DNA from: Algimonas porphyrae
GTDB taxonomy: Bacteria > Pseudomonadota > Alphaproteobacteria > Caulobacterales > Maricaulaceae
Direction of reading: 5' to 3'
Assembly (NCBI RefSeq): GCF_041429795.1
Contig: NZ_CP163424.1
Coordinates: forward strand, 2,978,001 to 3,042,000
DNA: 64,000 nucleotides
A model generated the notes under the pieces. It was given only the letters and a program-made list of their open reading frames with translations. It searched no databases and was not told where the DNA came from. Made by a program: the position numbers and the translations under genes. The stretch's first letter is position 1, and each line of letters begins with the position of its first letter. Below, one piece after another: positions 1,169-64,000 of the stretch.

Positions 1169-1269
1169 GCTACGTTTAATTTCTGTTAATGTAAGATGGC
1201 ATGTCGGGCGACTCACGCCCTGCTTTCGCGATACGCTGTATCACGATCAAATTTGGAGGGACCCTTTCG

Positions 1270-49086: not shown

Positions 49087-49098
49087 GATCCCGTCTCC

Positions 49099-50847: not shown

Positions 50848-51012
50848 GAAGTCGTCTCCCCTGCAGGTCCGGCCCCAGCCCGGGAATTCCTGCCCTCACC
50901 CTGTCCTTTTCGTCCTAATTGAGTCCTAAATGTGTTGCTAAACGAAGTCTTCACATGAATCGCAGTCACGCCAGGCTGAGCAGGCCCGCGCTACGTGGCG
51001 GATCAATTCCGG

Positions 51013-52299
51013 TCAGGGAGCTGTGACGGGAGGTGCGGGCGTTTCGTGCAGATCGAAAGCGCTATGCAGCGCGCGCACGGCAAGTTCGGTATATTCGCTA
51101 TCGATCAGCACGCTAATCTTGATCTCCGACGTGGCGATCACTTCGATGTTGATCCCCTTGGCCGCCAGCGCTTCGAACATGGTCTGTGCCACACCTGTGT
51201 GCGACCGCATGCCGATGCCGACCACCGAGACCTTGGTCACGTCGCGGTCATGTTTCAGAGCTTCGAAACCGATCTCCTGACGCGCCTGTTCCAACGCTTC
51301 CAGCGCAGTATCCAGATCCCGTTCGCCCACTGTAAAGGTCAGATTGGCGGTATTGTCCGAGCGCGATATCCCCTGCACGATCATATCGACGATGACGTTG
51401 GCGTCGCTCATGGCCTTGCAGACACGAGCGACAACACCGGGTTCATCGGCCAGACGCAACAGGGTGATCTGGGCTTCATCGCGACTATAGGCGACACCGG
51501 AAACGACGCGTTCTTCCATGGTTTGATCCTCATGACAGACGAGCGTGCCGGGATTGTCCTGGCCCGCTTCGGCCATGGAGGTCAGCACGCGGATAGGCAA
51601 ATCATTGTTCATGGCCAGCTCGACCGAGCGGACCTGTAGAACCTTGGCTCCGAGGCTGGCCAATTCCAGCATTTCCTCAAAGGCGATGCGGTTCAGACGG
51701 CGGGCTTCGGGAACGATTCGGGGGTCAGTCGTGTAGACGCCGTCCACATCGGTATAGATATCGCAACGATCCGCTTTCAAGGCGACGGCCAGCGCAACCG
51801 CCGATGTATCGGAGCCACCCCGCCCCAGAGTCGAAATACGACCTTCATCATTGATGCCCTGAAAGCCCGCCACTACTGCGACGTGGCCGTTCGCCAGGCT
51901 CGGACCAATCGCAGAGCTCTCGATTTCGGCGATCCGGGCCTTGCTGTGGGCCATGTCGGTCCTGAGCGGGATCTGCCAGCCGAGCCAGGATCGGGCGGGT
52001 ATGCCGCGTCGACGCAATGCAATGGCCAGCAGGCCGGACGTGACTTGTTCGCCAGAAGCGACGATCGAGTCATATTCATCCTCAACCGCGCCACCGGACT
52101 TTTCCCCGGACGGCGCCATGTCCGCATCCAGAGCATCAACAAGTGCAACGAGGCGGTTGGTTTCGCCGCTCATTGCCGAAACGACGACGGCGATTTCATG
52201 CCCTGCAGCAACTTCGGCCGCGACCAGTTTCGACACCGCGCGTATGCGGTCGAGATCGGCGACGGATGTGCCGCCGAATTTCATGACGATGCGACCCAT
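51013..52299 (-). CDS. lysC: Aspartate kinase
   Basis: 428 residues. Catalytic domain: VMKFGGTSVADLDRI at the N-terminus, VVSAMSGETNRL, TLGRGGSDTSAVALA and TDVDGVYTTDPRIV. Two C-terminal ACT domains follow (ISRSDNTANLTFTV and VIATSEIKISVLID) for feedback regulation. It phosphorylates aspartate at the head of the lysine, threonine and methionine pathways. ATG at 52299 is preferred over the longer frame. ubiG lies divergent, as in many alphaproteobacteria. Confidence 0.95.
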   Translation of the reverse strand: MGRIVMKFGGTSVADLDRIRAVSKLVAAEVAAGHEIAVVVSAMSGETNRLVALVDALDADMAPSGEKSGGAVEDEYDSIVASGEQVTSGLLAIALRRRGIPARSWLGWQIPLRTDMAHSKARIAEIESSAIGPSLANGHVAVVAGFQGINDEGRISTLGRGGSDTSAVALAVALKADRCDIYTDVDGVYTTDPRIVPEARRLNRIAFEEMLELASLGAKVLQVRSVELAMNNDLPIRVLTSMAEAGQDNPGTLVCHEDQTMEERVVSGVAYSRDEAQITLLRLADEPGVVARVCKAMSDANVIVDMIVQGISRSDNTANLTFTVGERDLDTALEALEQARQEIGFEALKHDRDVTKVSVVGIGMRSHTGVAQTMFEALAAKGINIEVIATSEIKISVLIDSEYTELAVRALHSAFDLHETPAPPVTAP

Positions 52300-52506
52300 G
52301 GGTCTGGGCTCCTGCAATTACGGCTCCGGGCTGTAGGCGAAGGCTGGAAACGACGCAAAGAGAAAGGGACAAATCGTCAAGACTCGGCTGTCTTTCGACA
52401 GTTGGCATGCGGCGACGTGGTTCCGACGCACCGACTGCACCCATAGACCAAAGAAAAACCCGCCGCGGCGCGAACCGGGCGGGCATCTTTCGAATTGTCG
52501 CTGAGA

Positions 52507-52674
52507 CTACTCGACAGCGTCCTTGGCATCGCCAATGGCGTCCTGCACCTTGGCTTTCGCCTGTTGCGCATGACCCTTGGCTTCCAGGGACTTGTCATCG
52601 GTCGCTTCGCCGATTTCTTCTTTCGCCTTGCCGACAGTCTTGTTGTAGCCAGCTTTGATATGTTCGCTTTCCAT
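52507..52674 (-). CDS. CsbD-family stress protein
   Basis: 55 residues, shorter than the ordinary ORF cutoff. MESEHIKAGYNKTVGKAKEEIG then GHAQQAKAKVQDAIGDAKDAVE is the CsbD-like signature (hydrophilic helices, K/E/A-rich). CsbD proteins are stress-induced; function unclear. An exact EcfG-type promoter (GGAAC at 52752-52748, CGTT at 52730-52727, 17-base spacer) lies upstream. Confidence 0.85.
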   Translation of the reverse strand: MESEHIKAGYNKTVGKAKEEIGEATDDKSLEAKGHAQQAKAKVQDAIGDAKDAVE

Positions 52675-52726
52675 GATTTTTCCTTTTATCTGGCGCGACA
52701 GGGGTGACGCGCTTCTGCATTAAAAG

Positions 52727-52752
52727 AACGACTTGGAGCGCTTTGCGGTTCC
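52727..52752 (-). promoter_or_regulatory. EcfG-type promoter of the CsbD-like gene
   Basis: GGAAC, 17 bases, CGTT, on the minus strand; the -10 is about 53 bases from the CsbD start. Exact consensus for alphaproteobacterial EcfG (GGAAC-N16/17-CGTT). Confidence 0.75.
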
Positions 52753-52781
52753 GAATACGATCCTGTCGCGTATGAAGGGAC

Positions 52782-53558
52782 ATGGCCCACGCTGAGACCG
52801 CACCCGAACATCTACGTTCCGTTTCCGTCGACCCGCGCGAAATGGAGAGTTTTTCGCGAATGGCACATGACTGGTGGAATCCGGACGGCATGTTCCGACC
52901 GCTACATGTGATGAACGGGGCGCGGCTGGCGCTGATCAAGGACGCCATTTGCGATCATTTCCTGCGGGATCCGGATCTGGAGAAGCCGCTCGACGGATTG
53001 CGCCTGCTCGATATTGGTTGCGGCGGTGGTCTGCTCTGCGAACCCATGGTCCGACTGGGCGCAACGGTGACCGGCGTCGATGCGCTGGAGAAGAACGTCA
53101 AGACGGCCAAAACCCACGCGCAATCGGTCGGACTGGAAGTCGATTACCGACACGGCACCATCGAGCAGATGGTCGAAGCGGGCGAGCAGCCCTTCGACGT
53201 CGTCTTGAACATGGAAGTGATCGAACATGTCGCCAATCCGCGTGACTTTATTGCCGACTGCGCCGCCATGGTCCGCCCGGGCGGGCTAATGATGTGTTCG
53301 ACCATCAACCGGACCCTCAAGGCTTTCGCCTTTGCGATCGTCGGCGCTGAATACGTCCTGCGCTGGCTTCCACGCGGCACACATCAATATGAGAAACTGG
53401 TCAAACCGACCGAATTGCAGGCCCATCTGCGCGCAGCCGGGCTGTCGGTTGACCGCGTTCAGGGCATGAGCCTCAATCCGCTGACCGAACGCTGGTCCGT
53501 CGGGGACGATCTATCTATCAACTATGTGACGGTCGCGACAAAGCCGACGGACATGTAG
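52782..53558 (+). CDS. ubiG: Ubiquinone biosynthesis O-methyltransferase UbiG
   Basis: 258 residues of the class I methyltransferase fold: EMESFSRMAHDWWNPDGMFRPLH at the N-terminus, SAM-binding LLDIGCGGGLLCEPM, VTGVDALEKNVK, and later NMEVIEHVANP. It carries out both O-methylations of the ubiquinone head group. Divergent from csbD and lysC. Complete length. Confidence 0.94.
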   Translation: MAHAETAPEHLRSVSVDPREMESFSRMAHDWWNPDGMFRPLHVMNGARLALIKDAICDHFLRDPDLEKPLDGLRLLDIGCGGGLLCEPMVRLGATVTGVDALEKNVKTAKTHAQSVGLEVDYRHGTIEQMVEAGEQPFDVVLNMEVIEHVANPRDFIADCAAMVRPGGLMMCSTINRTLKAFAFAIVGAEYVLRWLPRGTHQYEKLVKPTELQAHLRAAGLSVDRVQGMSLNPLTERWSVGDDLSINYVTVATKPTDM

Positions 53559-53642
53559 CATTGTGAAGCTTGTCAACAGGCTGTGGATAGTGGCGATGAA
53601 TATGAAGCTATGGCCTGCTTCTGAGGTTTGTTAACCTTTCTC

Positions 53643-53667
53643 GGAACGAAAAGAGTTAATGGCCGTT
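53643..53667 (+). promoter_or_regulatory. EcfG-type promoter of the ParB-like gene
   Basis: GGAAC (53643-53647), 16 bases, CGTT (53664-53667), about 92 bases before the ATG. Exact consensus. Several GTTAAC motifs and a DnaA-box-like TGTGGATAG near 53582 lie in the same leader. Confidence 0.72.
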
Positions 53668-53758
53668 AACCAGTATAGCGGTAATTTAACCGTAAATACG
53701 GAACCCTGTAAGCCTGCGACGCGTATTGTCTTTGTTAACCATGACGGTTGGAGACAAG

Positions 53759-54379
53759 ATGATGTTGTGCACATCCGACACACAAACTGTTCAACATGCG
53801 ACTGTGGACGAATTCAGACTGCTTCGGGGTAAACTGCTCGGCGGTGCCCACTTGCGGGATGTCAAGAGTCTGCAGGAAAGCATTGCACGCTTCGGTCTGC
53901 TCTCCCCCATCATCGTTGTCAGGCGGGCCGCCACGCTCGTTGTTGTCGATGGCCGGAAACGATTGGCAGCGATCCGCCGCCTTTCCTTCCAGGGTCGCCT
54001 GCCCCGCTCCCTGGTCCGCATCCCCTATCTGATAGCGTCCGAAGCCGCGCCCCATCGGTCGATGCTCATCCATAATCGCGAGCTATATGACGCGATTTCG
54101 GAACAGATGCAGGCTGGGACCAACCTCGATACACTCGCAGACACCTATCATCTGTCCCGGCAGTGCGTGCGTGACATTCTGACCCTGACCCGACTGGACC
54201 CGATCATTCGAGAGGCTTTCTTCAATCGACTGATCAATATTTCCCAAGCCAAAGCCTATGCGGCTATTCCAGACCGCGTCGCGCAGATCAGGCGTTTACG
54301 CCAGATGGGTCTGTTTGCGACGGCTGACGATATTCTGGCACAGGACGAACAGGACGAGCCGGAAGCTCTGGTTGCCTGA
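53759..54379 (+). CDS. ParB/Spo0J-like nuclease-domain regulator
   Basis: About 206 residues. The ParB N-terminal domain is visible (LGGAHLRDVKSLQESIARFGLLSPIIVV, VVDGRKRLAAIRRL), followed by a central helix-turn-helix (LDTLADTYHLSRQCVRDILTL) and a C-terminal helical part. No ParA is nearby, so it is unlikely to be the partition ParB. It may be a transcriptional regulator of the same fold. The start at 53759 is supported by GGAG at 53749-53752; 53741 is also possible. An EcfG promoter precedes it, so it belongs to the stress regulon. Confidence 0.7.
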   Translation: MMLCTSDTQTVQHATVDEFRLLRGKLLGGAHLRDVKSLQESIARFGLLSPIIVVRRAATLVVVDGRKRLAAIRRLSFQGRLPRSLVRIPYLIASEAAPHRSMLIHNRELYDAISEQMQAGTNLDTLADTYHLSRQCVRDILTLTRLDPIIREAFFNRLINISQAKAYAAIPDRVAQIRRLRQMGLFATADDILAQDEQDEPEALVA

Positions 54380-54405
54380 CCATCATATCGCCTGACCACC
54401 ATATC
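54374..54405. repeat. 16-bp tandem repeat at the ParB-like 3' end
   Basis: GCCTGACCATCATATC and GCCTGACCACCATATC are adjacent and differ by one base, and a third partial copy GCCTGATC begins at 54406. The first covers the stop codon of the ParB-like gene. Confidence 0.6.
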
Positions 54406-54755
54406 GCCTGATCAAAAGATTTTACGCAGGATGAACCCTGACGATCGAGGCTGATATATCGCCTGTCGCTGGAACCAAATGCGGGCCCAGGACTTAACTT
54501 ATCAGAGCCGGCAGATAACGGCATTCCCATTTCGGCATTTGCCGGTTCCATCTGCCCCATCCAGTCGCGACCGCCATATGACGGGCGCGATGTCTGCTCA
54601 ATACGATATACTCTAAAACACTGATAAATATCACTTTTTATACCCCTTTGGGGAACCGAAATGATCGCTTCACGTTGACTATCTGAAGGGTTTTATCGGG
54701 CGACTGATGTCGCCCCTCGGCCTTCGGGTTGAGTAACGATTGAACAGGACAGATC
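54380..54755. other. Intergenic region with repeats, EcfG promoter and hairpin
   Basis: This 376-base gap contains the end of a 16-bp repeat, an AT-rich stretch (54600-54650), the EcfG promoter of the next gene (54652-54676) and a GGGCGAC-TGAT-GTCGCCC hairpin at 54698-54715. The hairpin lies in the leader of the DUF2141 gene. No CDS was found. Confidence 0.6.
54652..54676 (+). promoter_or_regulatory. EcfG-type promoter of the DUF2141 gene
   Basis: GGAAC (54652-54656), 16 bases, CGTT (54673-54676), about 80 bases from the ATG at 54756. Exact consensus. Confidence 0.75.
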
Positions 54756-55235
54756 ATGAACACCAAAAGATTTATCACCGTTGCCAGCGCACTGGCCGTT
54801 TCGCTCGCTCTGCCATTGGGTGGGGCCGTCAAGGCGTCCGAATTCTTTGCCGCACAAAGCCAAGGCGGCGCCGCAAGTGCCGACCTGATCGTCAAGGTCG
54901 AAAATATCGACAAGACAGAAGGCCAGCTTCGCATCGGCCTCTATGACAGCGAAACCGGATTCGAAGACGATCGCGAGTTGAGAGGCCAGACCGTCCCTGT
55001 CACAGGATCGACCATGCGGATCATTTTCGACGACCTACCGGTCGGTCGCTACGCCATCAAAGTCTTCCACGACCAAGATACGGACGGGTCCCTTGACAAG
55101 GATTTTATGGGCATCCCGTCCGAACCTTATGGTTTTTCCAACAATGCGTCGGATCCTTTCAGCGCACCGGAATGGAAGGAAACGCGCTTTGCTCTTCCCC
55201 GAGGCCAGATGACCCAGTCTATCGATCTTGGCTGA
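54756..55235 (+). CDS. DUF2141 family secreted protein
   Basis: 159 residues. Signal peptide (ITVASALAVSLALPLGG...KASE), then a beta-rich domain with VENIDKTEGQLRIGLYDSETGFEDD and KVFHDQDTDGSLDKDFMGIPSEPYGFSNNA as in DUF2141. Periplasmic or secreted, function unknown. EcfG promoter upstream and two strong terminators downstream, so a single-gene stress transcript. Confidence 0.83.
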   Translation: MNTKRFITVASALAVSLALPLGGAVKASEFFAAQSQGGAASADLIVKVENIDKTEGQLRIGLYDSETGFEDDRELRGQTVPVTGSTMRIIFDDLPVGRYAIKVFHDQDTDGSLDKDFMGIPSEPYGFSNNASDPFSAPEWKETRFALPRGQMTQSIDLG

Positions 55236-55265
55236 GCTTCAGCTACGAGCCACATGACCAGTGAG

Positions 55266-55296
55266 AAAACCGGATCTGTCATCGGTCCGGTTTTTT
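55266..55296 (+). terminator. Rho-independent terminator after DUF2141
   Basis: AAAACCGGA pairs with TCCGGTTTT around an 11-base loop, followed by TT (six T's at 55291-55296). Confidence 0.8.
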
Positions 55297-55340
55297 CATA
55301 CGCGTCATTCACGTCGGGGCTTTGACGATACGCCAATAAT

Positions 55341-55373
55341 AAGGCCAGCTCCTTTGTCGGGAGCTGGCCTTTT
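55341..55373. terminator. Bidirectional terminator between convergent genes
   Basis: AAGGCCAGCTCC and GGAGCTGGCCTT form a 12-bp stem with T's on both sides. It lies between DUF2141 (+) and the convergent secreted-protein gene (-). Confidence 0.8.
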
Positions 55374-55394
55374 CAAATGATGTTCTAAGCTGTC

Positions 55395-55925
55395 CTAGAA
55401 GGACGTTTCGACACCTGCACCTGCGAGCGTGTAGAGCGGGTCGATTTCGATGGACTTCGGATAGGCCGCGCGCGTCTTCATGGCGTCACGCGTATCGAAC
55501 TCCGTTGCGCCCTGTGCCCCGATAAAGAGCGGGCTGTCCTCGATCAGATCAATTTCACGCAGACTGACGTCGCGCTCATATGCCTGCTTGTCGTTGAGAT
55601 CCGGCACAGACCGGCTGGTCATGCGCATATCGATATTCAGTGGCACAACGAGCTGCGGCAGAGGTTCATCGGCCCGCACGACGGTCACAGAGGGATGGTA
55701 TGCGCGTGCAATGGGAGGGTTTTCGCTGACCGCTGTCTTCTCATACATCCAGATGCGAGATTCTGTCGCTGTCGGGGTCAGCGCGACTGGACTGGCAGAT
55801 ACAGAGGCAGGAGCCACACTATTGTTGGGAGCATCATTGGCGTAGGCCTGAGCGGCACCCAGTGCAAAGGCGCAAGCAGTTGTCAAGCAGATGACATGTC
55901 GGGGGTTTATGTTTCCAGGTTTCAT
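55395..55925 (-). CDS. Secreted hypothetical protein, EcfG-regulated
   Basis: 176 residues. Signal peptide (VICLTTACAFALGAAQAYA, cleavage after AYA) and a low-complexity S/A/T/P segment, then LFIGAQGATEFDTRDAMKT and a terminal ETSF. No known domain. An exact EcfG promoter (GGAAC at 55959-55955, CGTT at 55937-55934, 17 bases) directly precedes the gene. Confidence 0.6.
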   Translation of the reverse strand: MKPGNINPRHVICLTTACAFALGAAQAYANDAPNNSVAPASVSASPVALTPTATESRIWMYEKTAVSENPPIARAYHPSVTVVRADEPLPQLVVPLNIDMRMTSRSVPDLNDKQAYERDVSLREIDLIEDSPLFIGAQGATEFDTRDAMKTRAAYPKSIEIDPLYTLAGAGVETSF

Positions 55926-55933
55926 ATAAAAGA

Positions 55934-55959
55934 AACGCCCGGCCTCCCTTTGGAGTTCC
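55934..55959 (-). promoter_or_regulatory. EcfG-type promoter of the 55395 gene
   Basis: GGAAC, 17 bases, CGTT on the minus strand. The -10 ends about 8 bases before the ATG at 55925, so the true start could be further inside the ORF or the transcript could be near leaderless. Confidence 0.65.
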
Positions 55960-56011
55960 GGGCGTCACTGTACTTATCGCTTCCCCGTAGGGTCGTTGTA
56001 AACGGCGCCGA

Positions 56012-56167
56012 TCAGGCCGCCGTAAACATGAATACGGCAATCATGGCAATGACGACCAGCGTCGTCGAGATCACGAACATCCACCAGAACTTCGGCGAAC
56101 GGCGTCCGGATTGGGCTTCGACATTGTCAAGCTCGGCAGGGTGATCGTCTGTATGAAAATCGGTCAT
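56012..56167 (-). CDS. Small single-pass membrane protein
   Basis: 51 residues. An acidic N-terminus (MTDFHTDDHPAELDNVEAQ) precedes one transmembrane helix (FWWMFVISTTLVVIAMIAVFMF). It follows the 56213 gene on the same strand (45-base gap) and is probably in the same transcript. AAAGGAACTGAGATATG gives a plausible ribosome binding site. Confidence 0.6.
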   Translation of the reverse strand: MTDFHTDDHPAELDNVEAQSGRRSPKFWWMFVISTTLVVIAMIAVFMFTAA

Positions 56168-56212
56168 ATCTCAGTTCCTTTCTATCGTCGTTCCGCGCTT
56201 ACTCGCGGTCTG

Positions 56213-56677
56213 TTATTCGGATGCGTCGATCAGTTGCCGCGACAACAGCACGCCGAGCCCGACAGCCGTTACGCCCGCCACAAGGGGCTTGTCTTCGACC
56301 TGGGCCAGTATCTTCTGGCTGATCGGATGGGTCAGAACGTCGTCTGGCACATGCGCCGCCAGCGGATCGTCTTTGGCGGCCAGCATACCCTTAATGCGCG
56401 CATGACGGTCTTCGGCCTTTTTGAGCTGTATCGTCTGAGACACACGCGCCATGATCGTCAATCCGATCGCGATAATCGCGAAAATGACGCCGAGGCTCAG
56501 GAACGCAATATCAAGACCATATGTCTTGGTGATCCATGTAAAGAGTGCGGCGAGCAGAAAGATTGCGGCAAATCCGGTCAGGAAGAAAGCGCCCATATAA
56601 CCTGTCAGCACTCTGACAGGGTTTGGCGTTCCTTTCCGCATCAGTAGCGGCGCGATAAGTGTCACATATCGAAGCAC
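56213..56677 (-). CDS. Two-helix membrane protein
   Basis: 154 residues from GTG 56677, with AAGGAGG five bases upstream; a GTG two codons earlier is excluded by its overlap with that ribosome binding site. Two transmembrane helices (about 27-48 and 58-79), then a helical cytoplasmic region (QTIQLKKAEDRHARIKGML) and a hydrophobic C-terminal segment (PLVAGVTAVGLGVLLSR). It sits downstream of the DUF883 gene and may share its stress regulation. No family assigned. Confidence 0.6.
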   Translation of the reverse strand: MLRYVTLIAPLLMRKGTPNPVRVLTGYMGAFFLTGFAAIFLLAALFTWITKTYGLDIAFLSLGVIFAIIAIGLTIMARVSQTIQLKKAEDRHARIKGMLAAKDDPLAAHVPDDVLTHPISQKILAQVEDKPLVAGVTAVGLGVLLSRQLIDASE

Positions 56678-56699
56678 GCGCACCTCCTTGTAAATAACG

Positions 56700-56730
56700 G
56701 AAAAACCCGACGCGTCGTGACGCGCCGGGT
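56700..56730 (-). terminator. Hairpin terminator after the DUF883 gene
   Basis: On the minus strand ACCCGGCGCG pairs with CGCGTCGGGT, followed by five T's (56701-56705). It separates the DUF883 gene from the next membrane protein. Confidence 0.7.
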
Positions 56731-56754
56731 CCTATGGATTGTCGGGCGTCGGAC

Positions 56755-57114
56755 TTAGCCTCGCAGGATCGCGCCGAGTACCAGACCGGCACCCACGGCA
56801 ATGGCCATGGACGACAGAGGCTTTTCGCGGATCTGTGTTTCAGCCTTGGTCGACAGTTCGTCGTAACGGGCCATCGCAGCGTCCTTTTGCTCGGTCGCGA
56901 CGGTTTTCACGGTTTCCTTGCGACCTTCGACTTTGGACAGGGCCTGATCCTTGACGGTCTGCGCCAGTGTCTTGAGGTCCGTGCGCAGGATTTCCAGCTG
57001 CTGGCTGATTTCCGTATTCATAGGCACGACATTGTCGCTCGTTTCGGTCGTGACGGATGGACGCTTTGCGCGCGTCGTTTTGGTTTTAGAGGTGGGTGTC
57101 TTGGCAGTGGCCAT
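56755..57114 (-). CDS. DUF883 (YqjD/ElaB-like) membrane-anchored stress protein
   Basis: 119 residues. Lysine- and threonine-rich N-terminus (TSKTKTTRAKRP), an amphipathic helical middle (LRTDLKTLAQTVKDQALSKV) and a C-terminal glycine-containing membrane helix (SMAIAVGAGLVLGAILRG), as in DUF883/ElaB/YqjD proteins that associate ribosomes with the membrane in enterobacteria. An exact EcfG promoter lies at 57181-57206. ATG 57114 was chosen since the longer frame adds little. Confidence 0.78.
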   Translation of the reverse strand: MATAKTPTSKTKTTRAKRPSVTTETSDNVVPMNTEISQQLEILRTDLKTLAQTVKDQALSKVEGRKETVKTVATEQKDAAMARYDELSTKAETQIREKPLSSMAIAVGAGLVLGAILRG

Positions 57115-57180
57115 TATTCTATCCTTCCAGTGAGAAGTCTTAATTGCGGGCGCATCCTCACGACGCGCGTTCATCTGTTC

Positions 57181-57206
57181 AACGGCGCACAGACCGAATT
57201 TGTTCC
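57181..57206 (-). promoter_or_regulatory. EcfG-type promoter of the DUF883 gene
   Basis: GGAAC (57206-57202), 17 bases, CGTT (57184-57181). Exact consensus, with -10 about 67 bases before the ATG. Confidence 0.75.
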
Positions 57207-57242
57207 GCAAAAAGCCCAGTCAGTACATCCGTCACGATATGC

Positions 57243-57268
57243 GGAACGGGATGTCTGCGTCAGGCATT
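57243..57268 (+). promoter_or_regulatory. Near-consensus EcfG promoter of the small acidic protein
   Basis: GGAAC (57243-57247), 17 bases, CATT (57265-57268). One deviation at the -10. Confidence 0.45.
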
Positions 57269-57333
57269 GTAACCATCAGCACATGGCTATGACGGCGCTC
57301 CGACGGCCAGCCCATTCTGATAAGGATTTCAAG

Positions 57334-57528
57334 ATGACCAGAACCGAACACCCTCGCACAGCCAATACCGAACAGGGCAATACCGAACAGGGCAATGTCG
57401 CCGTCCCAGAAAACCCAAGCCCGGCGGAATTGAAGGCCAGTCTGGAAGACGCCGACTTCCCGCAGGCATCACATATGGCAAAGGAAATCTTTGGGGAAAA
57501 TCCCCGTCTCGCCGATGAAGAGGAATAA
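57334..57528 (+). CDS. Small acidic stress-associated protein
   Basis: 64 residues, highly polar. Two adjacent TEQGN repeats near the N-terminus, then PSPAELKASLEDADFPQASHMAKEIFGENP. Start at ATG 57334 with TAAGGA seven bases before it. A terminator at 57643-57680 follows. An EcfG-like promoter lies upstream. No family recognised; the 2x TEQGN motif suggests slippage. Confidence 0.55.
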   Translation: MTRTEHPRTANTEQGNTEQGNVAVPENPSPAELKASLEDADFPQASHMAKEIFGENPRLADEEE

Positions 57529-57642
57529 TCGTCCCGCGGCGCAGGAACGCAGCATCAGACGGGAATGAAAAAAATCTGAAAAAACGTCCAACCGACGGGA
57601 ACCCTTTTTCAGTCTAGAACGTATTCCCTTCAACAGAGACAC

Positions 57643-57680
57643 AAAACACCTGGTACCTCCCCTTCATCCCGGTGTTTTTT
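57643..57680 (+). terminator. Rho-independent terminator after the small acidic gene
   Basis: AAAACACC (57643-57650) pairs with GGTGTTTT (57671-57678) over a 20-base loop, followed by TT; the whole ends in TTTTTT. A second stem AAGCCCGGAC/GTCCGGGCTT at 57681-57721 lies just after. Confidence 0.6.
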
Positions 57681-57773
57681 AAGCCCGGACCCCGTTTCTC
57701 CCCTGCACGGCGTCCGGGCTTATCTTTTTCGACCATGTGGTTTTTGACAGGGCGACGTCCCAAGCGTTTGGGG

Positions 57774-59504
57774 CTAGCGACCCTTGCGACTCACTTGGAA
57801 GGGCTGGGCTTCATTATCGATCAGAGGCATGGTCAGACGGGCCGTCAGCCCCGGCGCATTGTCCAGATAGTCCAGCGTCCCCGATAGCTGTCGTGCGAAA
57901 CCGCGCATCAGGCGCGTTCCGATTCCCCGCATCGCGGTGGGATCGCCGACACCACATCCATTGTCGCGAACATCGATCTGCAGCGACGCGTCGGACGGTC
58001 GGGTGATGATTACCTCGATAGCCCCGCCGCGCTTCGCACCGTGCTTGGCCGCATTGCTGATCGCCTCAACGATGAACAAGGCAACGGGAATGGCGTTATC
58101 GGCATTCAGAATACAACTCTCGACAGACTGCGTCAGGCTGATCCCGGCTTCTTCCGTCGCCAGGCTTTCCGACAGGGTCGAGACCAAGCGGGAGACAAAA
58201 GGCTCCAGATCGACACCGCGCAAATCCTGGCTCTCATAGAGGCCGCGATGGACGATCGCGATGGCGTTGATGCGGGCGCGCGTTTCGGAAATGGTGGCAA
58301 TCGCCTCTTCCGTTTCGGCTTTACGTTCCTGCATGTTCAGCAGGCTGATGATGATCTGAAGGTTGTTTTTCACACGGTGATGAATTTCGCGCATCAATGT
58401 GTCTTTTTCGTCCATATTGTCCGCGATGCGGCTGTCGCGTTCCTCCAGCTGGCTCGCCATACTGTTGAGCGAATAGGCCAGCCCCTGAACCTCCGCCGCT
58501 GCCGAGTTGGACAGATCAACGCGAGAGCCCAATTTGCCGGATGCGAATTGCCGCGATGTTCTTCTGATCTTGGCAATTGGTGTCAGCAACATTGTCTGCG
58601 TCCCAATCCAGATGAGACCGAACCCGACAAGCCAGGCAAAAATCGGCAACAGGATCGAGGTGTAAGGGTTCATGAAGGCGACTTTGCGTTCATGCCGCAG
58701 GTCGCGACTGACCGTCACATAAAGATCGAGATAACGAAAAAACTGAACCGCAACGCGACGATCTTCCCCGAGATCATTCGTATAGTTCAGCAGGCTGACC
58801 TCCGTATCACTGACCCGGTCCATCGCGCCTTCATTGGGCGTCGGGAACGTATTCGTACCCACAATGGCCTGACCTGACGGCTTCGTTAGCGTCGCCCGCG
58901 CGCCTTCGCGCAACGTCACATCCAGAACGTCCTTCAAACCGAGCTTTTCAGGCAGAACGAGCGTGTAGGTGCGCCCGGAAGAGGGAAATAGTTTCTGCAG
59001 AACAACCACGTCTGTCTCGCCGAGACGCCCTCGTTCGATCCGGAAGGAATCCTGGGCTCTGAACGGGTCGGGATTGATCATCTCCAATGACGGCAGAGAC
59101 GCCGGACTCTGACAAACGGGTACATCGCTGTCGTCTTTGATAATCATCGCCTGATAGACGCCGAGACGTCCCAGCACTTCGGCCGCACCTTCCTCACATC
59201 CCATATCGGCAATCAGTTGCGGCGCCGCCTCCAATCCCAGACGTCCGGCTTCGAGCGTCCGCCCGACCTCGCCTACGGCATTGGCGGCAACCACATCAGC
59301 AAGCTGTCCCTGTGAGTCTCGGTTCCGGTCGATCGTCGCCAGTGTTTCCAACGCTGTGAGGAACAGCCACGGCAAAAGCGCCAATGTCAGTAAGAGTGTA
59401 AAGCGGACACGCACACTGTTCCACCACCGTGGCTCGTTCGTATCAGCGAGCGGTGCGGTCTTTGACGAAGCGTGATTTTCTGCGTGTCCGGAAGACATAT
59501 CCAT
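57774..59504 (-). CDS. HisKA_2/HWE-type sensor histidine kinase, likely stress-response kinase
   Basis: 576 residues. One N-terminal and one mid-protein transmembrane helix frame a long periplasmic sensor region (VVAANAVGEVGRTLEAG...VAVQFFRYLDLYVTVS). A HAMP domain follows (LTPIAKIRRTSRQFASGKLGSRV), then the dimerisation domain with H375 (REIHHRVKNNLQ) of the HisKA_2/HWE subfamily and a C-terminal HATPase (ISNAAKHGAKRGG, DNGCGVGDP). It is next to nepR-ecfG-phyR, so it probably phosphorylates PhyR. I use ATG 59504; 59498 and 59564 are alternatives. Confidence 0.83.
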   Translation of the reverse strand: MDMSSGHAENHASSKTAPLADTNEPRWWNSVRVRFTLLLTLALLPWLFLTALETLATIDRNRDSQGQLADVVAANAVGEVGRTLEAGRLGLEAAPQLIADMGCEEGAAEVLGRLGVYQAMIIKDDSDVPVCQSPASLPSLEMINPDPFRAQDSFRIERGRLGETDVVVLQKLFPSSGRTYTLVLPEKLGLKDVLDVTLREGARATLTKPSGQAIVGTNTFPTPNEGAMDRVSDTEVSLLNYTNDLGEDRRVAVQFFRYLDLYVTVSRDLRHERKVAFMNPYTSILLPIFAWLVGFGLIWIGTQTMLLTPIAKIRRTSRQFASGKLGSRVDLSNSAAAEVQGLAYSLNSMASQLEERDSRIADNMDEKDTLMREIHHRVKNNLQIIISLLNMQERKAETEEAIATISETRARINAIAIVHRGLYESQDLRGVDLEPFVSRLVSTLSESLATEEAGISLTQSVESCILNADNAIPVALFIVEAISNAAKHGAKRGGAIEVIITRPSDASLQIDVRDNGCGVGDPTAMRGIGTRLMRGFARQLSGTLDYLDNAPGLTARLTMPLIDNEAQPFQVSRKGR

Positions 59505-59589
59505 CACATAGGTGACTAGCGCCCCAAAATTTGAATGGCCAGACACAAGTCTGGCCGAATACATGTTTATGACTCAGGCGCTGCGCGGA

Positions 59590-60210
59590 TTACCGTTTTC
59601 CAACGAGCGTATCGGCCTCTGACAAGATGGTTGTCATGGCATCGAGAGCGCGAACCTTATCCGGATCGCTATCAAAGCGACCCGACTTCATAATCGTTTC
59701 AAGCGATTTCCGGGCCCGGCTGACACGGCTCTTGATTGTCCCGACGGCGCAATCACAGATCTCGGCCGCTTCTTCGTAGGACAGGCCCGACGCGCCGACC
59801 AGGATCAACGCTTCGCGCTGATCGTCCTTGAGCATATCCAGACCACGGCGCAATTCGTTCAGATGCACGCTTTGCTCGGGATCCGTATTGGCGACGATGG
59901 TCTGCTCCGCCACTTCGGGCTCCAGCGAGGTCGCGCGCCAGGAACGGCGTTTGATCGAATAGAACTGGTTGCGCAGAATCGTGAACGTCCAAGCCTTTAG
60001 ATTGGATCCCGGTTTGAACTTGTCACGCGCTTTCCAGGCTTTCAGCAACGCGTCCTGAGCGACATCATCTGCCAGTGTGGCGTTGCCGCAGAGGGAACGC
60101 GAAAAAGCACGCAGATGCGGGATCAGAGCCGTCAGATCTTCACGGAACTGTTCCTCATCCAGAACCAAGACCTCTTCCTGTTCCGGACCGTCCGTCACGG
60201 TGCGGCTCAC
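59590..60210 (-). CDS. ecfG: EcfG-family sigma factor (general stress response)
   Basis: 206 residues with sigma region 2 (LRAFSRSLCGNATLADDVAQDALLKAWKARD and LKAWTFTILRNQFYSIKRR) and region 4 (LSYEEAAEICDCAVGTIKSRVSRARKSLE). It directs RNA polymerase to GGAAC-N16/17-CGTT promoters, which occur throughout this region. The ATG overlaps the nepR stop (ATGA), so it is translationally coupled to its anti-sigma factor. Confidence 0.94.
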   Translation of the reverse strand: MSRTVTDGPEQEEVLVLDEEQFREDLTALIPHLRAFSRSLCGNATLADDVAQDALLKAWKARDKFKPGSNLKAWTFTILRNQFYSIKRRSWRATSLEPEVAEQTIVANTDPEQSVHLNELRRGLDMLKDDQREALILVGASGLSYEEAAEICDCAVGTIKSRVSRARKSLETIMKSGRFDSDPDKVRALDAMTTILSEADTLVGKR

Positions 60211-60380
60211 TTGGACACCTCGTCCGCTTTCTTGAGAAGATTCAGAAAGTCGTCCGGCACATCCTCACTCAGCACATCATCATAGAGCTGGCGCAGCGAT
60301 GACCCGATCTTGTCCGGTAGCGGTTTCTTATCGAAAGCGCCGGATTTGCTGCCGGGTGGTGGTGTTTTCTTGTCAGTCAT
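60207..60380 (-). CDS. nepR: Anti-sigma factor NepR
   Basis: 57 residues. The hallmark helix-forming core IGSSLRQLYDDVLSEDVPDDFLNLLKKADE binds EcfG and, when PhyR is phosphorylated, PhyR. ATG at 60380 gives the standard length. The gene is first in the nepR-ecfG operon, with a near-consensus EcfG promoter upstream that would create positive autoregulation. Confidence 0.9.
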   Translation of the reverse strand: MTDKKTPPPGSKSGAFDKKPLPDKIGSSLRQLYDDVLSEDVPDDFLNLLKKADEVSK

Positions 60381-60420
60381 TGTGAAAAGGCCGTGTGTTC
60401 CCCTGAAATATATCAGATTG

Positions 60421-60447
60421 CTTACGCGTGGGAACCAAAAGGGTTCC
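60421..60447 (-). promoter_or_regulatory. EcfG-type promoter of nepR-ecfG
   Basis: Minus strand GGAAC (60447-60443), 16 bases, CGTAAG (60426-60421). One deviation from CGTT. The -35 lies in a palindrome shared with the divergent phyR promoter. Confidence 0.6.
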
Positions 60448-60455
60448 AATCAGTT
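60431..60455 (+). promoter_or_regulatory. EcfG-type promoter of phyR
   Basis: GGAAC (60431-60435), 16 bases, AGTT (60452-60455). It overlaps the nepR promoter: the GGAACC-AAAAG-GGTTCC palindrome supplies both -35 elements. Confidence 0.5.
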
Positions 60456-60539
60456 TAAATGTCTTGAACAGATGCGGTGTTACTGCCAGACGCAGCAACG
60501 CCTCGTCCATATTTGCTAAGTCTTTTAAGGGGATAAGCT

Positions 60540-61307
60540 GTGAGCCTTGTCGATACCTATGCACCCTACTTGCCCTATCTGCGTCGTTTTTCACGGGCAT
60601 TGACGGGATCTCAGGCCGAAGGCGACCGTTATGTTCGCACAGCGCTGGAAGCCCTTGTCGCCGGCGATGCCGCGATCGACGACACGCTGCCAGCGCGCAC
60701 GGCTCTTTATCGCATGTTTCTGGGGATCTGGAACTCGACAGGGGCTCAGCTCGAAAGCCCCGCGTCGAATGACGATTCCCCCACGGAGCGTATTCGCCGC
60801 CTGACCCCCAAATCGCGTCAGGCCTTTTTGCTGTCTGCACTGGAAGGGCTGTCCGTTGAAGATATAGCGGGTGTGATGAATGCAACCGAAGAAGATGCGC
60901 GCGAATTGCTGGCGCAGGCCGAAGCCGATATCGAAAAAGAACTTCGTACCAACGTCCTTATCATCGAGGATGAGCCGATCATCGCTGCCGATATCGAAGA
61001 ACTGGTTGGCAGCCTCGGCCATACGGTCGATGGCATCGCCGCGACGCATACAGAAGCCGTAAGAATGGCACGTGAGCACAAGCCCGGCATCGTGCTGGCA
61101 GATGTTCAGCTTGCCGATGGATCGTCAGGCATCGATGCGGTTGATGATATTCTGGGTGAATATGACGTTCCGGTGATTTTCATCACCGCATTTCCGGAGC
61201 GATTGCTCACTGGTGATAAACCGGAACCCGCCTACCTGATTTCCAAGCCGTTCAAGCCGTCCAATGTCAAAGCGGCGATCAGCCAGGCACTTTTCTTCCA
61301 CGACTGA
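60540..61307 (+). CDS. phyR: Response regulator PhyR
   Basis: 255 residues from GTG 60540, with AAGGGG upstream. The N-terminal sigma-like domain (residues about 1-130) includes LPYLRRFSRALTGSQAEGDRYVRTALEAL. The C-terminal receiver has NVLIIEDEPIIAADIEELV, D188 as phospho-acceptor (VLADVQLADGSSG) and VIFITAFPERL. The phosphorylated protein sequesters NepR and frees EcfG (family knowledge). Divergent to nepR. Confidence 0.95.
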   Translation: MSLVDTYAPYLPYLRRFSRALTGSQAEGDRYVRTALEALVAGDAAIDDTLPARTALYRMFLGIWNSTGAQLESPASNDDSPTERIRRLTPKSRQAFLLSALEGLSVEDIAGVMNATEEDARELLAQAEADIEKELRTNVLIIEDEPIIAADIEELVGSLGHTVDGIAATHTEAVRMAREHKPGIVLADVQLADGSSGIDAVDDILGEYDVPVIFITAFPERLLTGDKPEPAYLISKPFKPSNVKAAISQALFFHD

Positions 61308-61367
61308 GTCGGGGCTGCTCGCAACCTGCCTTCACCAAAGATCAGCAATAGCAGACGCGGCCCGCGC

Positions 61368-62093
61368 CTATTGCGCGGCCAAGGCAACGGGATGGGGCTC
61401 GAACAAGGCGGGATTATACTCTGCCAGTTCGATCAACCGTTGACGGTCCAGAATCTCGATCCCTTTCCGACTTGTCTGCAGCAGATCTTTCGATTTCAGA
61501 GAGGTCAGCGACCGTGACACGTGCACGATCGACAGGCCGAGTGCGTCCGCAAGAAATGCTTGCGGTACGGGCAACGGAACAAAATCTTCATGGCGTCCTG
61601 ACGAAATGGCCTGTCGGCGGTTCAACTCCAGAATAAAGTTGGCAATCCGTTCGCGGGCACTGAGACGGCCCACGCGAACAATCTGTTGCCGCAGGATGGT
61701 TTCTTCCTGGACCGTTACCCACCAGAAGGCCGAGGCTAACCGATGCGACCCTTGCGTCGCCCGCAGGAAGTCCTGAGCATCGAACACTGTGAGCCTGACA
61801 GTCGTTGCGGCGACGATGGAATGATCGGACCGCGCACCGACAATGGACATCAGATCGAAATAGTCGCCCGGCAGCAGGAAATTGATGATCTGTCTGCGTC
61901 CGTCATCCAGGTATCGCGCCCGTAAGACCCAGCCTTCCGTGACAATATAGAGCTTGTCGACAGGTTCGTTGAGAGAAACGATCGTCTGGCCAGGCTGGTA
62001 GACTTCTGTAGTGCTACGTAGATTTTTCAACACGTGCAGGTCGGCATCGCCGACATCCACATAGTGTTTTATCCTGCGGACAAACTGTTCCAA
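61368..62093 (-). CDS. Crp/Fnr-family transcriptional regulator
   Basis: 241 residues. cNMP-binding-like beta domain (YQPGQTIVSLNEPVDKLYIVTEGWVLR, INFLLPGDYFDLMSIVG) and C-terminal helix-turn-helix (VPQAFLADALGLSIVHVSRSLTSLKSKDLLQ). Ligand cannot be told: it lacks the Fnr cysteine set at the N-terminus. It lies between phyR and a secreted-protein gene; no clear EcfG promoter was seen upstream. Confidence 0.9.
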   Translation of the reverse strand: MEQFVRRIKHYVDVGDADLHVLKNLRSTTEVYQPGQTIVSLNEPVDKLYIVTEGWVLRARYLDDGRRQIINFLLPGDYFDLMSIVGARSDHSIVAATTVRLTVFDAQDFLRATQGSHRLASAFWWVTVQEETILRQQIVRVGRLSARERIANFILELNRRQAISSGRHEDFVPLPVPQAFLADALGLSIVHVSRSLTSLKSKDLLQTSRKGIEILDRQRLIELAEYNPALFEPHPVALAAQ

Positions 62094-62156
62094 CTGGTAC
62101 TCCCGCCCGGCAGGGCTACCTCAGACGTCGAAGCGGGACGGGACGGAAAAGATAAG

Positions 62157-62645
62157 CTATCCAGCGTCGGCGTTGGGGTCGATACGCAGAATGGCAGCCC
62201 GCCCATTGATATACAAGGTCGATATGTCATCCTCTACCGGACGATCAACAATCTCGATATCCATTGATGCGTTGACGGTTTTGGCGGCGGCGTCGACATA
62301 GGCTACAAGTTCCGTCGTGCGTCGGTCCGACTGGTTGAGATCCTGACTATCCGCATAGGCGGGCAGAACCGGAATAACAGTCACTGTTACGTCGCCGCAC
62401 GCTTCTGCTGATTTCATGCCGGCATTGATCGCTTCCGCGCTGTGGGTCGTGATCAGTGCGTCGTGAAAGAAGACCGGCAGTTCACCTACACGACAGTCAT
62501 TGAGCGCATCGAGATTGGGATCGGTCACCAGTTCCGTATAGCTGGCTTCGCCCATGACTGGGTCCAGCGTTTCAGCTTCGGAGGTCATCCAGGGGATGAT
62601 CGCGATCGGCAGAATGGCGGCGGTACAGAAAAGCAGGCGTAGCAT
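62157..62645 (-). CDS. Secreted hypothetical protein
   Basis: 162 residues. Signal peptide (LLFCTAAILPIAIIPWMTSEA) followed by a mature domain with C-pair (LNDCRVG, EACGDV) and VFFHDALITTHSAEAINAGM. No family assigned. A near-consensus EcfG promoter (GGAAC-N17-CATT) lies upstream on the minus strand. Confidence 0.55.
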   Translation of the reverse strand: MLRLLFCTAAILPIAIIPWMTSEAETLDPVMGEASYTELVTDPNLDALNDCRVGELPVFFHDALITTHSAEAINAGMKSAEACGDVTVTVIPVLPAYADSQDLNQSDRRTTELVAYVDAAAKTVNASMDIEIVDRPVEDDISTLYINGRAAILRIDPNADAG

Positions 62646-62672
62646 GGTTAGAGGTCCTTTGTTCCCCTAATC

Positions 62673-62698
62673 AATGCGACAGTGGGCCATTCGGTTCC
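62673..62698 (-). promoter_or_regulatory. Near-consensus EcfG promoter
   Basis: GGAAC (62698-62694), 17 bases, CATT (62676-62673), minus strand, in front of the 62157 gene. One deviation at the -10. Confidence 0.42.
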
Positions 62699-62757
62699 CG
62701 CATCCGGACAGGATGTTTGCCCCTTGCGATCATAATGTCGCACCGAATGCGATGATT

Positions 62758-62782
62758 GGAACCGGTCTGCGCGTCCGCCGTT
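62758..62782 (+). promoter_or_regulatory. EcfG-type promoter of the DUF2945/mscS operon
   Basis: GGAAC (62758-62762), 16 bases, CGTT (62779-62782), about 35 bases before the ATG at 62817. Exact consensus. Confidence 0.75.
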
Positions 62783-62816
62783 GCGCCTGTGAATGAGACT
62801 GCAATGGAGCGTTATT

Positions 62817-63032
62817 ATGAGCGGTTACGATAAAGGGACGAAAGTCGAATGGAATTGGGGAAACGGGACCGGAACTGGTAAGATCACAGAACGTTTCACC
62901 GATGATGTCACCCGCACGATCAAGGGCAATGATGTCACCCGCAAAGCATCGCCGGACGAACCCGCCTACATGATTGAGCAAGACGATGGCAACCGGGTGC
63001 TGAAGTCGCATTCCGAAGTCAGTAAGGCATAG
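62817..63032 (+). CDS. DUF2945 family small protein
   Basis: 71 residues with the family core YDKGTKVEWNWGNGTGTGKI and DDVTRTIKGNDVTRKASPDEPAYMIEQDDG. Small stress-related cytoplasmic protein of unknown function. EcfG promoter upstream; four bases separate its stop from the mechanosensitive-channel start, so it heads that operon. Confidence 0.82.
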   Translation: MSGYDKGTKVEWNWGNGTGTGKITERFTDDVTRTIKGNDVTRKASPDEPAYMIEQDDGNRVLKSHSEVSKA

Positions 63033-63036
63033 GTTC

Positions 63037-63984
63037 GTGCAGACCCCGCAAGATGATCAAAATTCACAGACAGACGCCGAGGGCGCGTCTGTCGATTTCG
63101 ATCCTGGCGAAGCGTTCAACCGGATCGACAGCTGGATAGACGGTTTCGTCAGCCTTCTGCCAAATATCGGGATCGCTTTCATTCTCCTGATGGGATTCTG
63201 GTTCCTGTCGGCCTTCGTCAAAAGCCAGCTGATCAAACGGTTCCGGGATCATGAGCGTCCCAGTTTGGGCATGGCGCTGGGCCGTCTGGCCAAAATTGCC
63301 GTCATCATTGCTGGCTGTGCCATTGCCCTCGCAATCATTGCGCCATCGATCAAACTGAGCACCCTGATTGGGTCGCTCGGCGTCGGTTCAGTCGCGATCG
63401 GTTTTGCCTTCAAGGACATTCTGCAGAACTGGCTCTCGGGACTGCTGATCCTCATCCGTCAGCCCTTCAAGATCGGCGACCAGATCGAAGCCGCCGGGTT
63501 CGAAGGCACGGTTGAGTCGATCGAAACCCGGGCGACCATTCTCAAAACCTATAATGGCGAGCATGCCATCATTCCGAACGCCGAACTTTATACCAATTCC
63601 GTTCTCGTGAAGACCAAGACCAGCATTAGCCGCGGGGAATATATGATCGGCGTATCCTACGATGCGGATATTGACGAGGTGCTGAATCTAATCAGATCGG
63701 AATTATCCAAGATCGAAGAGGTCGTGGACGATCCCGCCCCGGAAGCCCATACGTGGGAACTCGGCGACAGCAGCGTCAACATACTGGCCCGCTGGTGGAC
63801 GCGGGCTGAAAAGGCGGAGCAGGTCCGCATTCGCGGTCTTGCCGTTCGCGGCGTCAAGATCGCGCTCGACAAGGCCGGTATTGACATCCCGTTCCCGCAT
63901 CTGGTCAGCGTCAGACCGGGCGGCGACGAAACTGCGCAGCTTGACGCCCGCGACACAGCCGACGATGTGAAGTCGCCGACCTAA
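63037..63984 (+). CDS. MscS-family mechanosensitive channel
   Basis: 315 residues from GTG 63037. Acidic N-terminus, then transmembrane helices (IGIAFILLMGFWFLSAFV and LAKIAVIIAGCAIALAIIA) and the pore helix TM3 with SVAIGFAFKDILQNWLSGLLILI. The MscS beta domain follows (PFKIGDQIEAAGFEGTVESIETRAT, NGEHAIIPNAELYTNSV). Inner membrane, releases solutes upon osmotic downshift. It is cotranscribed with the DUF2945 gene under an EcfG promoter. Confidence 0.92.
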   Translation: MQTPQDDQNSQTDAEGASVDFDPGEAFNRIDSWIDGFVSLLPNIGIAFILLMGFWFLSAFVKSQLIKRFRDHERPSLGMALGRLAKIAVIIAGCAIALAIIAPSIKLSTLIGSLGVGSVAIGFAFKDILQNWLSGLLILIRQPFKIGDQIEAAGFEGTVESIETRATILKTYNGEHAIIPNAELYTNSVLVKTKTSISRGEYMIGVSYDADIDEVLNLIRSELSKIEEVVDDPAPEAHTWELGDSSVNILARWWTRAEKAEQVRIRGLAVRGVKIALDKAGIDIPFPHLVSVRPGGDETAQLDARDTADDVKSPT

Positions 63985-64000
63985 AGAAAGCATCTCATGA

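Follow-up and report, generated by a model that had tools for sequence, protein, structure and literature searches.

A cluster of predicted EcfG promoters around the general stress response genes of Algimonas porphyrae

The switch genes and the promoter motifs around them

We analyzed a 64,000-nucleotide stretch of the genome of Algimonas porphyrae, a marine bacterium of the Maricaulaceae (the window, C1:2978001-3042000 of a genome that is a single contig of 3,169,281 bases), close to one end of which lie the genes for the sigma factor EcfG, its anti-sigma factor NepR, a PhyK-like histidine kinase and the divergently transcribed response regulator PhyR (Table 1). An initial annotation of the window had given these genes the same identities, and all four products (EcfG, NepR, PhyR and the HisKA_2/HWE kinase) indeed pass the Pfam cut-offs. 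The ECF sigma factor has both region 2 and region 4 and adjoins NepR, PhyR and the kinase, and EcfG-type promoters with at most one mismatch precede nepR and phyR, at the same offset also in L034, G008 and G001 (L and G numbers denote the loci and genomes compared). NepR has a match in PDB 3t0y_B (4.2e-6), and the kinase matches NF051872 (PhyK) at 2.5e-83, which is under the cut-off of that equivalog. The genome encodes one NepR and one PhyR; its second PhyR_sigma2 match is EcfG itself. Taken by itself, the switch is that of the general stress response known from Alphaproteobacteria.

The promoter motif was scanned as GGAAC-N16/17-CGTT (exact), with the reversed pattern as a control and one-mismatch sites counted separately. 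The window holds eight exact matches, against a mean of 1.03 and a maximum of 4 in shuffled sequence (0 of 100 shuffles had eight or more), and seven of the eight fall in 52727-62895. Genome-wide there are 53 exact sites, 11 of which are packed into the 16.9 kb of C1:3030727-3047635 around nepR-ecfG-phyR, that is, into 0.53% of the genome. Four of the 11 lie beyond the window end, past which the cluster extends by 5.6 kb. From the nepR-phyR gap, the exact sites extend 7.7 kb in one direction and 9.2 kb in the other, and the genome-wide exact scan found none at 10 to 21 kb from the gap in either direction. Motifs are about 41 times as dense in the cluster as in the remaining genome, at whose rate 0.27 exact sites would be expected per 20 kb instead of the observed 11, and none of 20,000 simulation runs with uniform placement reached 11 sites (maximum 6).

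These sites are mostly located where promoters should be. Ten of the 11 lie outside called genes and at most 250 nt before a start (nine by a home-made gene caller, the tenth via a conserved 36-amino-acid (aa) frame), compared with 19 of the 42 exact sites outside the cluster by like criteria; hence about a third (10/29) of the promoter-placed exact sites occupy 0.53% of the genome. An upstream site with at most one mismatch was found for 16 of 27 cluster genes vs 5 of 63 outside genes (C1:2978001-3060000; the caller is our own script, which places starts approximately and overlooked the 36-aa gene). A reading of the exact site at 3044599 as gene-less was dropped; the site precedes this 36-aa frame, which is conserved in L034, L038 and L141, where the upstream sites deviate at no more than one position. 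Counting the 55395 gene, about 18 promoter units are predicted. An exact motif also lies far from the cluster at window position 1152-1176 (+), 93 nt before the gene of a 409-aa membrane protein.

The initial annotation had listed six exact sites, before the CsbD-like, ParB-like, DUF2141, 55395, DUF883 and DUF2945 genes, and near matches at nepR, phyR, 57334 and 62157. The scan recovered all six where they had been placed, but the 52507-63984 stretch contains seven exact sites. The near matches are real one-mismatch sites, and each is matched at the orthologous place in L034. The proposed gathering of the sigma factor with many of its targets is borne out by a motif density far above that of the remaining genome (an equal density elsewhere would have refuted it), by the conservation in a sister species and by the lack of a cluster in three switch-less relatives. 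Its extent, however, had been drawn too small, as the 11 exact sites and about 18 units continue to about 3048100. It had also left out the sRNA at 57630-57729, the exact site at 62871 and the interlocking of the nepR and phyR promoters.

Conservation and turnover in related genomes

The closest named relative of EcfG (92% identical) belongs to an uncultured Algimonas sp., the sister species, whose locus L034 and genome G025 are one and the same genome. Except for the 55395 gene, which has no match there, the gene order is the same over 20 kb. A site with at most one mismatch is present in L034 at all nine exact-site genes that have an ortholog (six of them exact), a count that leaves out the 55395 gene and the site inside DUF2945; the eight near-match units have a one-mismatch site in both species (8/8). 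Because the sister species has GGGAC, a mismatched -35 box, at the exact site 62871 inside DUF2945, we doubt that this site is a promoter.

We compared ecfG loci of up to 10 kb on each side of the gene. Clusters of this kind are frequent in Caulobacterales-type genomes. The 80 named loci (1.43 Mb) hold 403 exact sites vs 22 for the control. When the own locus is included, 270 of 414 exact sites lie no more than 250 nt upstream of a called gene start, compared with 2 of 22 in the control. In 60 Caulobacterales-type loci, the density is 1.56/kb within 0.6 kb, has dropped to 0.19 at a distance of 5-7.5 kb and is close to background (0.03) at 7.5-10 kb. The 17 Sphingomonadales-type loci have lower densities than these as far as 7.5 kb and a density of 0.05 at 7.5-10 kb. 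For this count, the loci were sorted by rank in the EcfG match table and by title, with L091 (no site), L096 and L098 left out; the order and family names of some relatives were taken from EcfG matches or from known taxonomy. Local sites vs the number expected from the rest of the genome were 115 vs 5.18 in a set of 21 (Oceanicaulis L074 plus 20 loci from the own family, among them the own locus with its 11), 33 vs 1.31 in five other Caulobacterales loci and 28 vs 3.61 in 13 further loci; the class-level loci L157, L164 and L168, which have no genome totals, stand outside these sums. The highest exact-site counts per locus are 16 (L043) and 11 (own, Oceanicaulis L074 and Caulobacter L057), the low ones 2 (G008, G055) and 1 (one of two NepR loci in each of G041 and G015).

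Genomes G024, G026 and G004, with neither a NepR nor a PhyR_sigma2 match, have no cluster: at most three of their 27, 22 and 20 sites, respectively, fall within 17 kb. G044, with no NepR and one PhyR_sigma2 match, has 11 sites. The switch-less controls were these four; three of them have no PF22029 match at all, out of 18 genomes lacking one. Among the 59 genomes of the family survey, 30 have a NepR match and 41 a PhyR_sigma2 match (over the cut-off in 37), and the switch seems to be often missing in the own family. The class survey gave a NepR match in 16 of 114 genomes, own included; one class-level match (G139), below the cut-off, was left out. In the same-genus genome G055, a weak NepR and EcfG adjoin DUF883 at locus L152 with no PhyR or kinase match in 20 kb, and the genome has no over-cut-off PhyR_sigma2 match except EcfG, i.e. 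a reduced switch.

The content of the clusters varies. The 270 genes preceded by a site form 61 similarity groups, 32 of which occur once. The commonest groups, by number of loci, are entericidin-like (40), NepR (34), PhyR/response regulator (26), DUF883-like (21) and DUF1328-like (17); for the DUF883 group, the site is exact in these 21, out of 81 ecfG loci when the own one is counted. L043 with its 16 exact sites contains several families of the own cluster in a different order (homologues of the DUF2141, PLDc_N, 123-aa, 3047180, lipoprotein, response regulator, DUF883, holin-like neighbour and DUF4112 genes) and also DUF2383, DUF892, DUF1328, entericidin and PLD-type synthase genes. In the own genome, DUF2383 (twice), DUF892, DUF1328, entericidin, PLD-type synthase, hemerythrin and Cu/Zn superoxide dismutase genes have exact sites but are dispersed. 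Among 19 such dispersed genes with an EcfG site, ten have a site-bearing relative near ecfG in another species vs 8 of 60 controls (Fisher p 0.001; matches in L034 left out; the two DUF2383 genes among the ten are one family and thus not independent). For this reason, membership in the regulon seems steadier than position. One locus comparison omitted L136 and L142, which are duplicates of L034 and L093.

The idea that DUF2141 is a gene moving together with its promoter found no support: of 23 matches found, 20 were fetched and 19 gave a row, with one exact (L187, beside ecfG in G027) and one one-mismatch site. Topoisomerase IB was matched in 4 of 14 genomes: the gene adjoins ecfG in G037, where it has no site, and in G001, where the site is exact, and it lies elsewhere in G003, again with no site, and in G021, with a one-mismatch site.

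Interlocked promoters, a predicted small RNA and other parts of the cluster

The 25-bp promoters of nepR and phyR overlap by 17 bp, each having its -35 box inside the spacer of the other, and therefore probably only one of them is occupied at a time. The same offset of 8-9 occurs in L034/G025, G008, G001, G012 and G018. The two promoters stand back to back, 64-67 apart, in most Caulobacteraceae loci, at a distance of 32-33 in L156, L157, L158, L161 and L163, and face to face (-52 to -60) in L036-L038, L043, G037 and G005. Overlapping pairs were also seen in a few Caulobacteraceae loci (L064, L065, L071, L080 and L089), some with a further site nearby; ties between pairs were resolved in favour of the larger overlap. 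We found no paper on overlapping nepR/phyR promoters in the literature searched, subscription papers being outside that search.

The loops of the predicted small RNA (sRNA) hold CCUCCCC and UCUCCCC, and 0 of 200 shuffles were as stable as the real fold. The G025 copy is 97% identical over 85 nt, and a nucleotide search of 59 genomes gave no match besides G025 and the own genome; in L038, a one-mismatch EcfG site at the corresponding position is followed by a similar two-loop RNA. GsrN of the Caulobacteraceae has an EcfG promoter and a C-rich hairpin loop, and its homologues typically lie near the switch, according to the sections consulted of PMC5869019. The sRNA resembles GsrN in its EcfG promoter (one mismatch, kept in L034), its position beside the switch and a C-rich loop near the 5' end, but it has two C-rich loops and is located 3' of the kinase gene. 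We did not assign it as GsrN: the model RF01529 (CC3552), which probably is GsrN, gave no match here (L031, covering window 48001-64000), while L057 matched. Pairing of the C-rich loops with ribosome-binding sites is conceivable.

At L069:7463, L074:7408, L148:13462 and L149:13522, an exact EcfG site precedes a stem-loop whose loop is of the CCCUCCCCC type, and these are candidates for GsrN-like sRNAs in Oceanicaulis and two other relatives. At L043:12650-12727 (-), a C-rich hairpin and then a terminator-like stem lie just 3' of an EcfG-site DUF1328 gene, possibly a 3'-derived sRNA.

The DUF883 gene is probably the first of a three-gene operon with the 56213 and 56012 genes, and mscS probably shares the promoter of DUF2945. 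In Escherichia coli, the yqjD-yqjE pair is linked to RpoS, and DUF883 with its holin-like neighbour appears to resemble this pair. Just past the PRC-barrel end of the cluster lie a Radical SAM gene and a DUF4130/UDG fusion gene (C1:3048110-3050812), for which no upstream site with at most one mismatch was found. Further on, 9 kb past the window end, there is a SAM riboswitch (RF00162, C1:3051256-3051380, L032:9256-9380, +; 48.8 bits vs a cut-off of 44.4), and the gene downstream of it at 3051423 looks like an acyltransferase/hydrolase.

Table 1. Genes and predicted EcfG promoters of the cluster. Positions are those of the window or, with the prefix C1, of the contig; promoters were identified by the motif; the last column gives the corresponding site in the sister species.
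Position	Strand	Feature	Evidence or remark	Site in L034
52507..52674	-	CsbD-like protein, 55 aa	Pfam CsbD 1.8e-17	
52727..52752	-	csbD promoter	exact	exact
53643..53667	+	ParB-like gene promoter	exact	one mismatch
53700		second site before ParB-like gene	one mismatch	
53726..54379	+	ParB-like protein, start TTG 53726 or ATG 53741	HTH_ParB 9.6e-4, TIGR00180 8.9e-7, both below cut-off	
54652..54676	+	DUF2141 gene promoter	exact	exact
54756..55235	+	DUF2141 protein, secreted-looking	Pfam 5.1e-32	
55395..55925	-	176-aa protein (55395 gene)	no Pfam or NCBIfam match	
55934..55959	-	55395 gene promoter	exact; 8 nt before gene, near-leaderless	
56012..56167	-	51-aa protein, third gene of DUF883 operon	no significant family; 72% identical in L034	
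56213..56683	-	holin-X-like membrane protein, second gene of DUF883 operon	Phage_holin_3_6 0.0015, below cut-off	
56755..57114	-	DUF883 (ElaB/YqjD-like) protein	DUF883_C 3.9e-5, below cut-off	
57181..57206	-	DUF883 operon promoter	exact	exact
57243..57268	+	57334 gene promoter	one mismatch (CATT)	CATT
57334..57528	+	64-aa protein (57334 gene)	81% identity over 38 aa in L034	
57598..57623	+	sRNA promoter	one mismatch (CGTA)	CGTA
57630..57729	+	predicted sRNA; its two hairpins have C-rich loops, second is a terminator	fold z -5.8	
57774..59564	-	PhyK-like HisKA_2/HWE histidine kinase, third gene of nepR-ecfG-kinase	HisKA_2 1.2e-25	
59590..60210	-	EcfG sigma factor	Sigma70_r2 8.2e-16, r4_2 2.7e-15	
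60207..60380	-	NepR anti-sigma factor (ATG start)	Pfam NepR 6.3e-14 on longer frame 60207-60449	
60423..60447	-	nepR promoter, interlocked with phyR promoter	one mismatch (CGTA)	one mismatch
60431..60455	+	phyR promoter, interlocked with nepR promoter	one mismatch (AGTT)	one mismatch
60540..61307	+	PhyR, sigma-like domain and receiver	Pfam; PDB 3n0r 1.3e-90	
61368..62093	-	Crp/Fnr-type regulator	family scan; no EcfG site found	
62157..62645	-	162-aa secreted-looking protein (62157 gene)	no family	
62673..62698	-	62157 gene promoter	one mismatch (CATT)	CATT
62758..62782	+	DUF2945-mscS promoter	exact	exact
62817..63032	+	DUF2945 (Hva1_TUDOR) protein	Pfam 5.7e-21 on longer frame from 62793	
62871..62895	+	motif inside DUF2945 gene, before mscS	exact; doubtful promoter	GGGAC
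63037..63984	+	MscS-type mechanosensitive channel	MS_channel_2nd 1.6e-18	
C1:3042063-3043337		DUF2254	first of the genes past the window end	
C1:3043358-3043732		single-domain response regulator	exact site 19 nt before	exact
C1:3043863-3044375		lipoprotein-like gene	one-mismatch site	one mismatch
C1:3044439-3044549	-	36-aa microprotein gene	exact site at 3044599	one mismatch
C1:3044636-3045652		DNA topoisomerase IB	one-mismatch site	one mismatch
C1:3045866-3046048		PLDc_N-type 60-aa membrane protein	exact site	one mismatch
		123-aa protein, then DUF4112	between PLDc_N-type and 3047180 genes	
C1:3047180-3047599		secreted-looking protein	exact site	exact
C1:3047721-3048029		PRC-barrel gene	one-mismatch site	one mismatch

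Origin and meaning of the cluster

The partner switch of the general stress response is established for the family, as stated in the consulted parts of PMC7083833, PMC6599016 and PMC3073932. The locus is like the known system (EcfG/SigT-NepR-PhyR, ECF15) in its four protein parts, in the nepR-ecfG-kinase order with divergent phyR and in the promoter consensus. According to the sections consulted, the known targets include csbD, mscS and ecnAB (PMC7083833) as well as topoisomerase IB and a cAMP-binding-protein gene (PMC6599016), and in such target types, too, the two systems are alike. What differs is that about 18 predicted targets lie within 17 kb of the switch, and such a target cluster is not mentioned in the consulted parts of the regulon descriptions in PMC7083833, PMC6599016 and PMC3892343. 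In Caulobacter crescentus, SigT-dependent genes are also found near sigT (CC_3475): during carbon starvation, CC_3473 (an entericidin B homologue with a SigT motif) depends on SigT, as does CC_3466, which has no motif and is SigU-dependent; the consulted part of PMC3073932 does not treat them as a cluster. No paper on the clustering of EcfG targets around ecfG was found among the titles and abstract beginnings of the literature searched (subscription papers being outside it), nor does that literature describe how large and persistent the target cluster is, or its new parts.

We consider it very likely that the locus is an alphaproteobacterial general stress response locus enlarged into a regulon cluster, which persists in many Caulobacterales while its members enter, leave and reshuffle with their EcfG promoters. 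Several observations weigh against this. Eight of the 18 units depend on one-mismatch sites, and sites as good or better also precede 5 of the 63 outside genes. The conservation with a single sister species partly reflects recent ancestry, and DUF2141 homologues elsewhere in relatives are mostly without sites. Furthermore, 5 of the 80 named loci, among them L091 and Marinicauda L094, have no exact site at all, and the clustering is uneven, with only 2-3 exact sites in the same-genus genomes G008, G037 and G055 (G037 has more one-mismatch sites).

In favor of the motif matches being mostly due to chance or base composition, the exact motif is no commoner in the whole genome than its reversed control (53 vs 54). 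This control is imperfect, however: because the switch-less relatives G024, G026 and G004 have fewer forward than reversed matches (reversed 67, 59 and 49), it understates the genome-wide excess. Chance is contradicted by the local density, the promoter placement, the conservation in L034 and the 403 vs 22 sites in relatives, and we rejected it as the source of the sites on the basis of the shuffles, the 11 of 53 sites in 0.53% of the genome, the counts in relatives and the simulation maximum; it is extremely improbable. The cause of the clustering is a different matter, on which we keep two readings. Genes that happened to lie near ecfG may have gained their EcfG promoters at an early time and remained in place through descent, nearness itself not being selected. 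The order shared over 20 kb with L034/G025 and partly kept in G001, G018 and L036-L038 favors such an inherited neighbourhood, as do the entericidin-, DUF883- and DUF1328-like genes that are recurrent neighbours of ecfG, whereas the altered order in L043, the site-bearing relatives of ten of 19 dispersed genes inside other clusters and the 32 of 61 families occurring once do not; on balance its chances appear to be slightly short of even. Alternatively, selection may keep targets near the sigma gene, whether through the local concentration of the sigma factor, joint transfer or a common chromosomal domain, members being drawn in and retained. This would fit the decay of density with distance in the 60 Caulobacterales-type loci and a clustering that persists though its content changes. 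On the other hand, the cluster strength varies widely among relatives (loci of the own-family set range from 1 to 16 sites), and Sphingomonadales-type loci have few neighbouring sites, which makes this a possible but rather doubtful explanation. It is with the same reserve that we suggest a broader version, in which the general stress regulon of the Caulobacterales is partly gathered at the switch by selection, targets with EcfG promoters entering and leaving a neighbourhood of ~15 kb and nearness itself being selected.

A regulon cluster with changing members, the explanation that we prefer, suggests the following course of events. In line with the known partner switch, the PhyK-like kinase would phosphorylate PhyR under stress, and phosphorylated PhyR would then remove NepR from EcfG. 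The freed EcfG would transcribe about 18 units lying up to about 9 kb away in either direction, including its own operon and phyR. The predicted outputs are DNA topoisomerase IB, the mechanosensitive channel, the DUF883 membrane operon, small envelope proteins, the GsrN-like sRNA and the microprotein; both the transcription by EcfG and the roles of these outputs are deduced from the sequence. The cluster would be an old neighbourhood that persists in many Caulobacterales as members with EcfG promoters come, go and change their order.

The cluster is useful as a finder, too: position and motif together singled out the sRNA, the 36-aa protein and several families whose function is unknown as candidates for the stress response. 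By moving genes in Caulobacter, it becomes testable whether the nearness of targets to their regulator is selected or inherited. Global regulons are usually regarded as scattered; here a large, recurring share of the consensus promoters adjoins the sigma gene in many genomes of one order.

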